Source of the DNA: Saksenaea vasiformis B4078
Lineage: Eukaryota; Mucoromycota; Mucoromycetes; Mucorales; Saksenaeaceae
DNA: 64,000 nt
Assembly (NCBI GenBank): GCA_000697055.1
Contig: JNDT01002032.1
Coordinates: 1-64,000 of the forward strand
Direction: 5' to 3'
A program made the position numbers and the translations under genes. The notes under the pieces are model-generated. The model did no database searches. It saw only the letters and a list, made by a program, of their open reading frames with translations, and was not told where the DNA came from. Positions 31,737 to 37,994 of this stretch are shown here, in pieces; position 1 is the first letter of the stretch, and every line of letters starts with the position of its first letter.

Positions 31737-32123
31737 ATCACCTGTGAAATAACGGTTGACCACGTTTATTGAAGACGAAAAGGAAAAGAAAAAAAAGAAA
31801 CGAGACAGAATAAAATGACCGTCGCGTCCGAAATGTTGTTCAATTCAATCTTTTTTAAAGAACCGCTCCAAGCTTATTCTTGGCTGGCTGGCAGTATGCC
31901 TGGACCAATTTGAGCGAATGACAGCTCTAGAACAAAGTGCGGAGTACCCCCTACCCCAATCATCTCTTTAGAACAAAGTGCGGACCTTCTCTGCTGGCGA
32001 ATAAAATATGGTAAAACAATCGGTCCTTTTTTGGGACAAGCAAATGCTTTTGGTTCCTCATAGAAATAGCTTATATATAGCGTCCACTTTTGACGCTAAT
32101 CCATAATTTTGTTTCTAATTATA
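31737..32123. other. Spacer between divergent units
   Basis: Contains the upstream region of the WHIM-like gene (minus) and of the DUF6729-like pseudogene (plus). A short direct repeat, AGAACAAAGTGCGGA, occurs twice (about 31930 and 31972). A TATATATAGCG stretch lies near 32072. Confidence 0.5.
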
Positions 32124-32808
32124 ATGGATTACAGTCGAAGCCAGTCGTCTCAGCAAGATCCAACACCTTCGCCGTCAATATCTGGTCTCAAACTGTGTAT
32201 GTATTGATGTTGAATTCTCGTGAAATATACATTAATGCTAAAAGTTAACAGACCACTCGTCTGATGAAGTCAATAGAATGGGATTAGCTTCCATGGAGGA
32301 AACGCAATCAATTCCAGAGGGACTCCCTCCAAGCGAAGACAATAGCAATGACGAGACGTCAGATGGATCGCTACATGTTCAGTACCTGACCAGCCTGCGA
32401 GATAGACTAAAGCAAGAAATGGAACAATCACCAAAAAATATTCCCAAATGCTATCAGAATCAGAGTTATCGGGTGACACCACCTAGTCCGTATTTTGCTC
32501 TCCGTGTCCGAAAAAGATTAGACCCTTCACCGCTTTACCATCCTCGCATGTTTGCGTGGCTAGTCCATCTGCTCATCAAGGAGTTCAATGCTCTGGAAAT
32601 TTTCACGTGTGTGGCTGGGCAGACAGACCAATTGCAAGAAAAGTTTTCGATATGCATGACAATTTCTATATCATGTTGTACAGATGTCAATGAAATTATC
32701 AAAGTTCCACCGTGCTCCTTATCAGAAGAGTTTCCTGCAATACTTTCTCAAGATGGAGCAGTATCTCGAGAATTGATGAATACGATGCGTAGCTGCTTTC
32801 ATTCCTGA
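32124..32808 (+). pseudogene. DUF6729-like transposon-derived gene, frameshifted
   Basis: Exon 32124-32196 splices (GT-AG, phase 1) to an open frame from 32252 to the TGA at 32806-32808. The product begins MDYSRSQSSQQ and has RMFAWLVHLLIKEFNALEIF, like the PxxFxWxPHLL start of DUF6729. The next expected part lies in another frame (CGWADRPIARKVFDMHDNFY, about 32613-32675). The first frame resumes with SEEFPAILSQDGAVSREL, again DUF6729-like. Two compensating frame changes therefore interrupt the domain, and the zinc-ligand cysteines of the first frame are lost. Fungal DUF6729 proteins are commonly tied to mobile elements (recalled, not checked). The gene sits 1 kb upstream of the Fanzor on the same strand. 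Confidence 0.5.
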
Positions 32809-33843
32809 ATGGGACCTGGTCCATTTTCTCGAGCCATTGGCGAGCATCATCACCTGATATGATATACCTTGCTGCATGTTTGGTACTGGATTTTCGAATG
32901 AGTATGTCATGCAGTACGCATCCCTTCATTTGGACCTTGTACTACTCGACACGACATTTAGCTAACGTCGTTTCCCGCGTAATTCCAAACGGATTGTGAC
33001 AGAAGAACAGCGGGGAGCCTGGATGGTGTTTCTAATATAGTAAGGATAGCAAATCGACATTTTCCTCGTTTGGAGATAAAGACGATTACGGCGGCACATC
33101 TCGAAGTGCAAAATGTTTAAAGAATATATACAATGATTGCGTGGAATTGTGTTCGATGGACTATTATCTGCATACGAGTACATTGCCAGCTACAGTTCTC
33201 ATCACAGCGAGCATAAGATAGCAAGTTATCTCTACTGTGTTTGACTACACGTAGCCTGTAGGTCACAAGGCATGTCTCTAAATTTCTCATCACTCATGTT
33301 TCTGATGGTCTTGGACTATGAAAAACGAATGCGCATAAATCCGGATTTATGGCTAGAAAAGAAACTGCCAGTCAAATCATCATCTTTTATTATCGAGAAG
33401 GCAACAGCGCCCGTTTAGCATCAGTTAGTATAGATATAATACTTAGATAGAGCTGGAAAAGACAGCAGTTTTTATTTTGAATAAATCTCTGTAAACGGTC
33501 TTAAAGAATTTCTGTCTGTTTTCTCTGCTACTAATTTCATGTAAAAGTTAGTTCGCGCATGAAGAGACGTGCTGAAGACGTCTGACTTGAATAAAACGTG
33601 CCATAAACATGTCTCATCCATGGTGTGATAGATTGAACATCCACAGTATGATAGATCCTTTTTCTTAGGAACTACAAGCTATGGCTCCAAAAGGTGCGGG
33701 TCGGATTAGATATTGTTTGTAAGAGATCTGGTGATCTGGTGATAGATCAACAACAGTGATTTCTTTGTATAGTGAACTATAAGATAGGAACGACCACCAC
33801 ATTTTAGTCCTCATTTTCTTATTTTGTCGTTTTTGCCTTTATC
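32809..33843. other. Decayed sequence between pseudogene and Fanzor
   Basis: No intact frame. It may continue the decayed transposon gene in several frames. The last 250 bp are AT-rich and must include the Fanzor promoter; no clear TATA box or terminal inverted repeat was found. Confidence 0.45.
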
Positions 33844-36800
33844 ATGGAGGAGGTTCAGGGACCACCTCGCCGTCGGAGACGATATGGATATCAGCACAGT
33901 CCTCTATCCGACCTCCCTGGTCGTGATTATTCGTTTGTGCGAAAACTAAAACTGTCCAGCTTTCTGAGAGAGGACTATAAGCACCTAAGGGTATATGTGT
34001 ATTCCGACTTTCTCTGGACAAAAGCTAAGTCCGTTGATATAGGTTGCTTTTCGGGCACTTGCGGAAGAATACGCCGCTGCTTGCCAGTGTGCGATGTTTC
34101 TTGTCAATCTCCACATTCGTCGTTGGCTTGAAGGCCAAATAGAACTTTTCCCTCCGATTTCGAAGGAATATTTCTTCACTGCTGCTTTCAAGATGGTATT
34201 GCGACGAGAACCCCACGCTAATATCAGAGTAGCTTTTGTATGATGTTGCTATAATTGTGCAATCAGCTGACTAATTTCTTTGTCTTCTGTATACTTTATA
34301 GTCCCCCTACCGATGGTGCGTTGACCTAAGAGAAACTTTTGAGACCGTGTTTGATTTGTGCAGATTCAATCCACAAGCATCAGAAGGTGCATAAAAGAAC
34401 TTAACAATTTTAAGAATATTCATACATTATTAGAAAACTATTCTCTCCCGAGACTGACCCACGTCTTAAGAGACCTGGCTCCTTCGTTTGCAGGGAAAAT
34501 AACTGCCAGTGAGCACTTAATATCAAAGGGGCAAAAAGGCAGTTGTATATTTACGTTTTTTGCCTTCGTAGACACCTTTGAACATGTCACGACAAATCTC
34601 CCAGTCTATATGAGAAGAACATTTAAAGCATTCTTTCTTCGCCTTTTCGAACAGTATCCTCAAACCCAATACCACAATGTGAATGGCCTAGGTATTATAT
34701 TTTATTCATTTCCTCTACAGTAGCTAATGTGATATTTGTAATTCTAGCATCTCGCTGCACGAACGCAGTCTTGGCACAGAACAATTTCGACCATAACGCA
34801 TGGCCAGCGTTTGGTACTGATGCGGTTGCAGAGTTCGAAGCATTCTATACGTAGGTTTTATATGATTGTTAACCATTTCGCGATTGTCTATCACTAACTG
34901 CTCCATGTTTTATAGGGAGTTTCTATGGACTTACACGGAAACGTTTGGAAACACGGACATTTCAGGCGATTTAAGCGATGAGCAGAAGGAAAGTTTACTT
35001 CCCTCCATGCTACAATTTTCTTTCCAGATGCTTAAACAATCGAACGAGTACGATGGAGAAGGGTGGTCGCTATTACCATTAGCGAAGAATCAAATAGGCA
35101 TGATTGAATGAGCGAAAGCCTCTACTTAGGTATTATGGTCTAACATGCACGCTATAGGATATGTGCCGGTTCCCCACCCCATCCTATATTGGATTTTACA
35201 AGGTGTTGCTGTGGACCTCCCGGATCACCTCTTCGTAAGTGGTCTACAAGAAAAGTGAATGAAAACTAACTGGCCATCCAAAAGCCTCCGTTACATAATC
35301 CTCGTACTTTTTCCAGTGCCCATCGGAGCGCAGTTTACCGTGAGCAGCTTTGGGAAGAGATTTTCTGTATAGACCGTGTCATGCCTAGGCGTTGGCGTTC
35401 GCAAGGTTTGCTTATAATTGATCACATGTAAATGCTGATTTCATCGCTCTTTGCTTAGGAGAAAACAACGAACAGCTTCCGCAAATCGAATTTGACTACG
35501 GTTTCGAAACAGACGGTGTGATGGCAGCCATCAGGTTCAAGTCTCGCAAGCCCAATCGAGGTATGGCTAATGTTTGCCACATTATGAAGCAACTAATGGG
35601 ATATCTGCGTCTCAGCTTCTTACCCTTCATCCAGAAGAGACTTCCAATTCTTGCCCCGAAATAGAGACATGTCTATTATCCAACGTGGTTTATACCACTT
35701 AAACAAGGAACCCACAGGTTTCACTGCAGCACAAAACCTAGACCCCGGATTGACCCGCATAGTGGGGATTGACCCAGGTATGTCACCCGCTTTGAAAAAA
35801 ATTCAGTGATAGCTATATATTATATAGGCATCCGATCCCTGGTAACTTCTGTTGACACGGCGGATAACTTACGTGATCGGGAAACAAGGCAGCACCATAC
35901 GTTTACGGTCACCAATGATTATTACCAGTAATATAACAGGATGATGTTGGCCATGGTGTGATAACCATATCAATTTCCAGGAACTGCTCCAAGTTCACCT
36001 GGAGTCTTCAAATGGAGCGGAAGAATCGCTTAGCAGCGAATATGCAACAGGTGTATGATCGTCTGGCGGAGCACCCAAGCACGCAGGCATCGGTTTTAGG
36101 GTTTCAGAGCTATCTTTCGACGCAATTTGCCGAGAAGAATAGGTACTTTCTGGATATACACCGCTTGTATGTGTCCGTTCTAAAAGGATTTTGCTAGGAC
36201 TGAGGAATACAATCGTCACTATCGTCATAGAGAAAGACGTGGGCTCCTGGAGTCTGCGAGAAAAATGACAATGGACGTTATTGCGGATCAAGCTGCAGGC
36301 TTCTATCCTAATACAACTTTGGTAAGCCCACCAATGCATCATACGAGTACATTGATCGTTATGCGAATAGCCACCTATCCAACATGTACACAAAGAGAAC
36401 AAGAGGCAACGAAAACGAAGACGCCAGCAGCACCGGCGAAATCAGGGAGGCGGCCAACGGGACCAGCGCCAGGTTCTAATCGCTTACGGTGACGCGGACC
36501 TACATACCGGCACGTATACGACGTATGGTCCTCTGCCGGTCAAGGCAAATATTTTTGATCCATGTTGATATTGAATTTTTAATTGCTGTTCTATGTAGAC
36601 GTTTCGCAAAGTCTTGGCTCGGCGATGCCCACTGATATGTGTAGATGAGTATAAGACCAGCAGGGTCTGTAGCGTCTGTCATAACGATACTATCCAACTG
36701 CGTGATCCTAACCTACGCATTTGCAACCACAAGTATGTATAATATGCAACCAAACGCGACCAAAGGCTAAACATTAGAAATCGTTCATTAGAAAAAAGTA

Positions 36801-37198
36801 CCTAAGCAAGCGCCCGAACAAACGAAAGCGGCAATACTGTCTCAATGAAAACGATGAAGTATTGCACGCTACATGCGAATGCCCTGACAGGCGTCAACTA
36901 GGTAGAGTCTTGGTACATTGTCTCTGACTAACCACCTTAATAGCTCCAACCGATTTCCGGAACATTGTCTATCCCATTCGGCTGTGTCCCCAGTGCGTGT
37001 ATGATAGGCAAGGAGAGATGACACCTTTGGTAAGTAATATGATTAGTAGGATATACTACCTCTCTAACATTACATTAGTTTTGGAATAGAGACGTTAATG
37101 CCGGCCGTAACATGCGTGAGATACTTGTCCGTTACATTGAATCCGGATGCCAGTTAACGTCTCGTCCCGAAGCGCTGTCTCGGACAGCTCAGCAGTGA
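33844..37198 (+). CDS. Fanzor RNA-guided endonuclease (eukaryotic TnpB homologue), full length
   Basis: Eighteen exons splice in frame: 33844-33990, 34043-34237, 34302-34386, 34434-34691, 34748-34850, 34916-35097, 35158-35234, 35285-35405, 35459-35560, 35616-35777, 35828-35927, 35981-36166, 36198-36321, 36371-36544, 36599-36732, 36792-36901, 36944-37029 and 37079-37198. The product is 821 aa with no internal stop. A basic N-terminus and helical recognition region lead to FDYGFETDGVMAAIRF, then RuvC-I RIVGIDPGIRSLVT (Asp476). After a helical, Arg-rich insert comes QVLIAYGDAD (Asp655 at the usual RuvC-II site). Next is ICVDEYKTSRVCSVC (Glu689 and a CxxC), a Lys-rich loop, a second CxxC (LCPQC), and RuvC-III FWNRDVNAGRN (Asp787). 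The family uses an omega RNA from its 3' flank to cut DNA. Introns 6 and 14 need GC donors. Being intact suggests selection or a recent arrival. Confidence 0.93.
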
Positions 37199-37360
37199 GG
37201 CACTGCTATCTGGTCACTCGTTTGACAAGTAAGTATTGGAACTAGGTCTTACGAGTCACGCTTTGGAACCACGTGTTAATGAAAATTAGGGCTATCCAGA
37301 CACCGTCTGTGAGCCTTATTCTTCTTTTTATCTGATTGGGCGGTCGTAATATTGTTGTTT
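37199..37360 (+). promoter_or_regulatory. Short Fanzor 3' flank; possible guide-RNA or UTR-intron region
   Basis: Only 162 bp separate the Fanzor stop from the next gene's ATG. Bases 37216-37256 can pair (ACTC...GTAAG with CTTAC...GAGT). This is where Fanzor omega RNAs usually lie. The same stretch also looks like an intron, with GTAAGT at 37229 and AATTAG at 37290, so it may simply be a UTR intron of either gene. An inverted CCAAT box (ATTGG) is near 37335. Confidence 0.3.
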
Positions 37361-37994
37361 ATGGACATCCATGATGAAACAAAACGATTACCACGCTGGC
37401 AATTTAGAAAGCAATGTAAACTAAAACGACGACGTGAGAAAAGACAAAAGGAAGCTCGGGAACGAGAACAGAATGCACCTCCTCCAACAGAAGAAGACAT
37501 CAAAGAACAGCATGAAAAACAGCAAGCTGATCGGTTGGCATACGAACAACAAAAAGCTTTATGGGAAGAACGAGAGAAACGGTACACAATGATCAACATT
37601 GCGCGTAAAAGAGCACAGGAATTGGAACAGGAAGCCCGAGTCAAAGCACAGGTTTAAAAGAAAACAGAAACACGATCTCACAACAGTTGACCTAACGCCT
37701 CACGTTTCTTCAATAGCGAAAATGGCAAGAAGCGTTAAGACGAATACCCATGTTACCGTCTGAATTTGAGGCGCTAAAAGATGAAAGTTCAAAGGTAGAC
37801 ATACTGATATTAGGAAAAAGGAAGTTTGTACCAACTACAAAGGATGATAGAACATCATTCAAGGTATGCCGACTTTTGTATCTAGCAAAGAGGATACAGA
37901 CACAGCACAACCGAGACGGCGTTACAAGGATTTATTTCGAGAGCAAAAAGAAAAGAAGAAACAACAAGAAATGGCAATGAACAAACTGCTCTGA
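37361..37994 (+). CDS. Small basic coiled-coil protein, unrecognised
   Basis: Start ATG 37361 (MDIHDETKRLPRWQFRKQCK). Exon 1 ends 37651 and a 65-nt intron follows, then exon 2 from 37717. A GTTTGT donor near 37826 spliced to the acceptor near 37891 joins a last exon ending RRRYKDLFREQKEKKKQQEM before the TGA at 37992-37994. Without that last intron the frame stops at 37980 with a less natural tail. The protein, about 155-170 aa, is dominated by Arg/Lys/Glu/Gln-rich helix, including LAYEQQKALWEEREKRYTMI. It resembles the charged arms of splicing or RNA-binding proteins, but I cannot name a family. It begins 162 bp after the Fanzor stop, on the same strand. Confidence 0.6.

Follow-up and report, generated by a model that had tools for sequence, protein, structure and literature searches.

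A Fanzor transposon of Saksenaea vasiformis with a putative guide RNA scaffold interrupted by a spliceosomal-type intron

The 64,000-nucleotide (nt) stretch of the Saksenaea vasiformis B4078 genome analysed in this study (the window, C475:1-64000) harbours a copy of a DNA transposon whose cargo is an intron-rich gene for a protein that is very likely a divergent member of the Fanzor1 nucleases. Comparisons within the same 38.7-Mb genome of 666 contigs (G000) lead us to favour, with moderate confidence, the view that this multi-copy element encodes an omegaRNA that would be assembled by spliceosomal splicing. We also hold it reasonably probable that at least four Fanzor transposon families of this genome have split guide RNA genes, in which the hairpin next to the guide would be created, or brought to the scaffold, by the host spliceosome acting on a 3' splice site at the right end of the element. 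This proposal is made because an arrangement resembling that of SpuFz1, whose scaffold is described to end at the right end of the element and whose guide consists of the next 14-15 nt of the flank (PMC10432273), arises only after removal of an intron. The predicted requirement for this removal is strict in three of the families (F2-F4), and in the window family (F1) it would be one of adjacency.

The evidence for such an arrangement in the window family lies at the 3' end of the gene, where the region from the stop codon to the right end of the element contains two conserved blocks, the first consisting of a hairpin in the last codons together with the putative stem-loops SL1 and SL2, and the second of a terminal stem-loop, SL3 (Table 1). 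In 25 of 27 3' ends, which could be parsed in this manner, the blocks are separated by 48-62 nt; the remaining two are C527, whose donor is lost, and C343, for which parsing was incomplete. The intervening segment starts with GTAAG, GTAAA or GTGAG and finishes with YAG in 24 of the 25 parsed ends, with C416 carrying GTATT...TAA, and it contains a branch-like YTRAY site in all but C362. Compared to the window, the segments of other families show 52-59% identity (random sequences 48-49%), which is close to the 57.5-63.8% found for coding introns in the four of five comparisons where these were available, and the pieces before and after it retain 73-83% and 57-81%, respectively. The same pattern is found within the family, where the window differs from eight copies at 0-1 of 59 positions before the segment, at 5-7 of 62 inside and at 0-1 of 26 after it, a count that leaves aside C416, C527, C532 and C343 because of damage, truncation or incomplete parsing. 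By its donor, its branch-like site, its acceptor and its intron-like divergence, the segment at 37229-37289 thus has the features of a spliceosomal-type intron.

Once this segment is removed, the flanking sequences join to a scaffold of about 64 nt, counted from SL1, that contains a 7-base-pair (bp) SL1 and a 4-bp SL2. We have evaluated its helices in 12 distinct joined sequences obtained from 22 ends, with the other five of the 27 left out, and find 90.4% of the cells paired compared to 27-39% when slid. Seven cells are changed on both sides, a number that averaged 3.1 in shuffles and was reached in none of 500. The hairpins leading up to the right end of the element, where the guide is presumed to start, are conserved and partly covarying and may belong to an omegaRNA.

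A related organization, in which the hairpin itself appears to be split, is found in F2 (C419 and relatives, with an intronless open reading frame), F3 (L003 and relatives) and F4 (C33, which is identical to C428, and C382), whose right ends were set independently by the positions where copies cease to match. In F2, all 18 other records stop matching at query positions 503-526, nine of them at 513, where the copies diverge. The end of F3 is located at query 459-462 in nine of nine other matches longer than 400 bases, and that of F4 at query 219 in ten other records, at 218 and 214 in two more and at 174 in C88, with three identical records continuing through the flank. The right ends of the three families (L072, L003 and L102) all read TGTA and are preceded by an intron-split TACA..TGTA hairpin, and the guide-proximal hairpin is formed only once the two halves are joined at the predicted splice junction (marked by a slash). 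In F2, the end TTCTTTTTCAG/ATGTA and the stretch TACATCTTCGG upstream of the donor would combine to UACAUC-UUCG-G/AUGUA, in which a stem of 6 bp encloses the loop UUCG. The equivalent stem in F3, UACAGUU/GAAA-AACUGUA, is found in six of six copies, with a GAAA loop in five and GGAAA in C533, and in the two distinct sequences of F4 the stem has 9 bp and the loop 4 nt. In dinucleotide-preserving shuffles with a consensus donor, such a stem was reached in 2, 0, 0 and 0 of 1000 cases for F2, F3, F4 (C33) and F4 (C382), respectively.

These numbers bear on the idea that the complementary halves are terminal repeats recognized at the level of DNA by a transposase, and that the GT and AG dinucleotides are coincidental. 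Short palindromes are indeed present at both ends of the window element (GGCAGTATGCC on the left and CAGACACCGTCTG on the right), and a hairpin as in F2 is not rare if any GT is accepted as donor. The combination of consensus donor, acceptor and end stem is rare, however, and the corresponding window-type segment carries a branch-like site in nearly all parsed ends and evolves in an intron-like manner, which makes this explanation highly improbable. In F1-F4 the acceptor and the right end are 5-27 nt apart, and the window element is followed after 45 bp by the ATG of an open reading frame, both of which would also suit a 3' splice site through which the whole element, or a transcript of it, becomes spliced into host mRNAs, as intron camouflage or for capture of a downstream poly(A) signal, without any role in guide formation. 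We consider this quite unlikely, since the donor that is conserved together with this acceptor resides beside conserved hairpins in the 3' untranslated region (UTR) of the element itself and not at its left end.

The principal rival explanation regards the segment as an ordinary 3'-UTR intron and attributes the functional omegaRNA to unspliced or separate transcripts, in which case splicing would compete with guide production. Although we view it as improbable, it carries more weight than the other alternatives. The signals of the intron are themselves ordinary and SL3 of the window family is complete downstream of it. Since this terminal hairpin is itself unsplit, an omegaRNA that stays unspliced and carries a spacer of 61 nt is possible in the window family. 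Here SL2 and SL3 flank the intron, and a search for a hairpin spanning the junction found none. What an ordinary intron leaves unexplained are the hairpin halves in F2-F4 that meet at the predicted splice junction to enclose UUCG, GAAA or other 4-nt loops.

Besides the possibility of an unspliced RNA, several observations weigh against an omegaRNA that is assembled by splicing. The covariation in the window family is modest, with the number of pairs showing changes on both sides reached in 52 of 500 shuffles, that of further pair types in 341 and the covariation score in 9. SL2 provides no evidence from covariation because it never varies in the 12 sequences, only 71.7% of the cells are paired in helix 5, which belongs to SL3, and the terminal piece of the sister element C577 shows 57% identity, little above the value of its intron. 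A genome search that allowed up to two mismatches gave no contiguous, already joined F1 scaffold; the equivalent search for F2 gave one match, in C214 (L104), which contains two mismatches and lies in no obvious element. Among the eight of nine F2 copies that were parsed, five contain perfect stem halves and six a GT donor, with both present in only four and AT replacing GT in two, and the acceptor string is absent in C442. In F3 the acceptor CAAAAG is atypical and its AG is lost in one of six copies, and the evidence from F4 comes from two distinct sequences. When every GT was admitted as donor, 60 of 1000 shuffles reached the stem for F2 and 7 of 1000 for F3, the two F4 sequences remaining at 0 and 0. 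A right end of this kind was not found in a fifth family (C531/C666/C599), in stretches that stop short of it. Finally, no target-adjacent motif (TAM) was recognized beside the target-site duplication, and in the window copy itself introns 7 and 15 have GC as donor.

On balance we favour a splicing-assembled guide RNA, which would operate as follows. A transcript reading past the right end of the element would yield both the mRNA, by removal of the 18 coding introns, and the omegaRNA, whose scaffold would begin in the last coding exon, cross the stop codon with SL1 and SL2, be broken by the 61-nt intron and continue as the terminal SL3. The guide would consist of the next nucleotides, provided by the flanking host DNA, and we infer that splicing in vivo joins the scaffold up against this guide. 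The resulting complex of Fanzor and omegaRNA might then cut DNA of matching sequence. Its most likely target would be the empty donor site, on either the sister or the homologous chromosome, where repair would copy the element back.

The element that provides this context was missed in the earlier note on this stretch, which had treated the gene as a stand-alone unit at 33844-37198, thereby leaving out the 5' part of the element and the 117 nt past the stop codon, and which had overlooked the arrangement at the 3' end. The gene is the cargo of a DNA transposon whose copies align over 31886-37315 but no further, with 13 of 15 right-end matches (including that of the window itself) extending to 37315 and six other copies sharing 91-96% identity across almost the whole gene. 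An exact 8-bp duplication flanks five of the eight window-family copies in which the two ends were readable, namely the window copy (with four additional bases on the left), C422, C277, C527 and C639. It matches at seven of eight positions in C578, and also in the sister element C431, and is absent in C416 and C476. Since the copies compared have retained their introns and most are flanked by 8-bp duplications, the element moves as DNA; C476 and C343 are internally deleted derivatives. No intact transposase was recognized in the element, only fragments related to DUF6729, and it is therefore probably mobilised in trans. Across the copies compared, the DUF6729-related similarity is spread over separate frames, reflecting either decay or unrecognised introns, and a Pfam scan of the fragment at 32242-32805 itself gave no match. 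In L070 (C566:4001-12000), adjacent frames encode DUF6729 and, after it, a 3'-5' exonuclease domain; this candidate mobile-element protein could relate to the 5' fragments of the element. DUF6729 was not mentioned in the papers searched. The 5' part of the C431 element encloses a Tc1/mariner-like transposase frame (1136-2246 of L068, C431:57001-65000), and in L079 (C133:35301-35550) a sister Fanzor element is followed, 6 nt past its right end, by a left end of the window family.

Insertion follows a motif, TTnAAAnnnCCG, which was examined at 31838-31885 and in the left flanks of 16 other insertions. A CCG is located exactly 16 nt upstream of the element, corresponding to 8 nt and the 8-bp duplication, in 12 of 16 left flanks (13 of 17 if C639 is included), usually with a TTnAAA-like run upstream of it, and in six of six window-family copies having a duplication it precedes the latter by exactly 8 nt. 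This spacing reflects a strong insertion-site preference for which we have no explanation. CCG is described as the TAM of NlovFz2 (PMC10432273), and the CCG of the insertion site sits off the position where the TAM for a guide from the right flank would be expected. The fixed upstream motif had led us to consider tRNA-linked insertion, which was rejected as 29 scanned loci contained zero tRNAs. On the other side of the element, an open reading frame at 37361-37657, without significant Pfam match, begins 45 bp past the right end, and the insertion may thus have occurred in its promoter or 5' UTR.

The exon and intron bounds of the gene were fixed by comparison with eight other genomic copies and the sister element C431, as a splice search of the window sequence alone did not provide a single unique gene model. 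The gene extends from an ATG at 33844 to a TGA ending at 37198 and consists of 19 exons separated by 18 coding introns of 42-65 nt, which together encode a protein of 792 amino acids (aa). The introns use 16 GT and two GC donors and 15 TAG, two CAG and one AAG acceptors. The spliced open frame proposed in the earlier note for this region, with its RuvC motifs, the glutamate and the CxxC pairs, is thus confirmed; its division into 18 exons and 17 introns encoding 821 aa has to be replaced. A largest-frame model with 17 introns and 813 aa, in which 34509-34571 is coding, was likewise rejected after the comparison of copies, since this segment has 63 nt in the window and 64 nt in each of the eight other copies, all of which would be shifted in frame if it were translated. 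The exons of C422 are in register with those of the window, with zero indels and zero stops, and C431, at 66% protein identity, has an unbroken frame (although its start codon was not fixed) in which all 18 introns agree in position and phase with those of the window.

The state of these copies relates to the possibility that this is a decaying gene whose function has been lost in the genome. Seven of the eight other copies contain frame-breaking indels, stops or lost splice sites, and the window copy, which has zero exon damage, carries a private GC donor in intron 7 (35098), where 8 of 8 other copies have GT. If this intron were retained, translation would end after 306 aa, upstream of the RuvC domain. 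The GC donor of intron 15 is by comparison shared by the window and all eight copies. The earlier description of an undamaged frame therefore holds with respect to exon indels and stops and is doubtful with respect to this donor. Against decay stand the intact C422, the unbroken C431 and the ratio of nonsynonymous to synonymous substitutions (dN/dS), which is 0.16 for the window compared to C422 and 0.14-0.19 across the eight copies. On the basis of these values the protein family is under selection and a general loss of function appears rather improbable. Selection is thus confirmed at the level of the family, but it does not follow, as had been suggested, that the window copy is expressed because it is intact.

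The protein shows the motifs of a Fanzor nuclease, including RuvC-I (GIDPG, with D455, invariant among three aligned proteins), a glutamate in DEYKTS (E660) that is followed by the first of two CxxC pairs (667/670 and 739/742), and RuvC-III (NRDVNA within WNRDVNAGRNM, D758). The place of DEYKTS is occupied by EFRTS in L072, P0001 and P0002, and we take the glutamate in either motif to be the rearranged RuvC-II residue of Fanzor proteins and the succession of RuvC-I, glutamate with CxxC, second CxxC and RuvC-III to be the Fanzor order. The zinc-ribbon profile PF07282, a search with such a profile having been suggested earlier, matches three of three members of the family alignment (best E 7.6e-6), but it scores the window protein alone at 18.9 bits and thus below the cut-off of 26.3. 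A profile comparison by hhalign relates the family to three Fanzor-like proteins with a probability of 98.8 (E 4.3e-17, over 143 N-terminal columns), these partners being the intronless C419 protein, at 32.5 bits for PF07282, and a pair of database proteins at 29.2 and 23.1 bits. A PDB sequence search with the spliced protein found no match to a Fanzor or TnpB, and a phmmer search against 5.8 billion proteins found nothing useful, both because the family is too divergent. The assignment to the Fanzor/TnpB family made in the earlier note is thus supported by motifs and by family-level profiles, and the profile evidence from the single protein is weak. The genome contains at least 137 PF07282 matches (E up to 0.001, with 150 of 388 candidates scored), of which six are under the family cut-off and from which the window gene is absent. 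They include several families, with intron-rich and intronless (C419) genes side by side, and one of the weakest is found on the window's own contig outside of the window (C475:87133).

Table 1. Positions of the transposon, the Fanzor-like gene and the putative omegaRNA scaffold in the window.
Feature	Position	Strand	Remark
Left 8-bp target-site duplication TTATTCTT	31874..31881	.	= 37316-37323; 4 extra bases GGCT before element
Transposon copy, 5430 bp, 5'-GGCTGGCAG...GAGCC-3'	31886..37315	+	sequence common to copies between these ends
DUF6729-related open reading frame fragment	32242..32805	+	similarity to L070 protein (PF20499)
Exon 1	33844..33990	+	copy comparison
Exon 2	34043..34237	+	copy comparison
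Exon 3	34302..34386	+	copy comparison
Exon 4	34434..34508	+	copy comparison
Intron 4	34509..34571	+	kept as coding in 17-intron reading; 63 nt here, 64 nt in eight copies
Exon 5	34572..34691	+	copy comparison
Exon 6	34748..34850	+	copy comparison
Exon 7	34916..35097	+	copy comparison
Intron 7	35098..35157	+	GC donor here, GT in eight other copies
Exon 8	35158..35234	+	copy comparison
Exon 9	35285..35405	+	copy comparison
Exon 10	35459..35560	+	copy comparison
Exon 11	35616..35777	+	RuvC-I begins here
Exon 12	35828..35927	+	copy comparison
Exon 13	35981..36142	+	copy comparison
Exon 14	36198..36321	+	copy comparison
Exon 15	36371..36544	+	holds basic stretch KENKRQRKRRRQQHRRN
Exon 16	36599..36732	+	DEYKTS and first CxxC
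Exon 17	36792..36901	+	copy comparison
Exon 18	36944..37029	+	second CxxC
Exon 19	37079..37198	+	RuvC-III, stop TGA
Hairpin a, putative omegaRNA scaffold, within coding sequence	37174..37188	+	first pair AU 7, GC 4, GU 1 of 12 sequences
Putative SL1, 7 bp, across stop codon	37191..37207	+	conserved hairpin
Putative SL2, 4 bp	37213..37226	+	invariant in 12 sequences
3'-UTR intron splitting scaffold, GTAAGT..GTTAAT..TTAG, 61 nt	37229..37289	+	splice signals and divergence
Putative SL3, terminal hairpin abutting guide	37290..37315	+	ends at element's last base
Right target-site duplication; predicted guide start, runs into flank	37316..37323	.	guide by analogy with SpuFz1

The presence of a Fanzor in a fungus is by itself unsurprising, since Fanzor1 proteins are reported as spread in fungi, with families in Mucor, Rhizopus and Phycomyces (PMC10432273, PMC3627910). 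With the described Fanzor1 systems SpuFz1, GtFz1 and PpFz1 the window element shares the order of RuvC-I, II and III with the glutamate beside the zinc ribbon, its nature as cargo of a eukaryotic transposon and, in its case as a prediction, a right-end scaffold into which the open reading frame extends, an overlap given as 17 aa for GtFz1 (PMC10432273). A 7-bp SL1 is likewise described for PpFz1 and SpuFz1, and a 4-bp SL2 before the guide for PpFz1 (PMC11423790, PMC10432273). The length of the joined scaffold is close to that of the reported omegaRNAs of PpFz1 (75 nt) and SpuFz1 (90 nt; PMC11423790, PMC10432273). Unlike these systems, the window protein exceeds the usual 600-700 aa (PMC11423790), contains a long insert with further cysteines between its CxxC pairs and lacks a matching PDB chain, and its gene combines 18 coding introns with a putative intron-split scaffold and an additional putative SL3 before the presumed guide. 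The Fanzor1 elements of Mucor, Rhizopus and Phycomyces, as described by Bao and Jurka (2013; PMC3627910), are equally fungal and multi-copy, several of them without recognised transposase, but their duplications measure 9 bp (MuDr), 11-12 bp or 6 bp, in contrast to the 8-bp duplication, the DUF6729-related fragments and the TTnAAAnnnCCG insertion site of the window element. IStrons, mobile elements that likewise belong to the TnpB-carrying world, also undergo splicing; as described, a bacterial self-splicing group I ribozyme removes the insertion sequence from host RNA (PMC4227781), whereas the introns found here are of spliceosomal type and lie inside a putative guide RNA scaffold. An Rfam scan of 31800-37500 (E up to 1) returned no match, either to a group I ribozyme of the IStron type or to any other family. 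At the level of titles and abstracts, a splicing-assembled omegaRNA was not found in the literature on Fanzor or TnpB splicing, by which its absence in print is not established. The word 'intron' occurs zero times in PMC10432273, PMC11423790, PMC10711439 and PMC3627910, and splicing is named in PMC11423790 among possible roles of a cyclophilin.

Collectively, the nuclease described here is of a known kind, and it is the split guide RNA that would be new. If our proposal is correct, the guide RNA of Fanzor proteins would be coupled to gene expression in eukaryotes, a link that is closed to bacterial TnpB. With the nuclease mRNA and the guide residing on one transcript, active guides would be limited to spliced nuclear RNA, and the maturation of the guide RNA, and hence the targeting of the nuclease, would depend on nuclear splicing by the host. 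For such families, predictions of omegaRNAs from contiguous genomic sequence would be wrong or would miss them. The many PF07282 matches make Saksenaea vasiformis a rich source of Fanzor-like genes.

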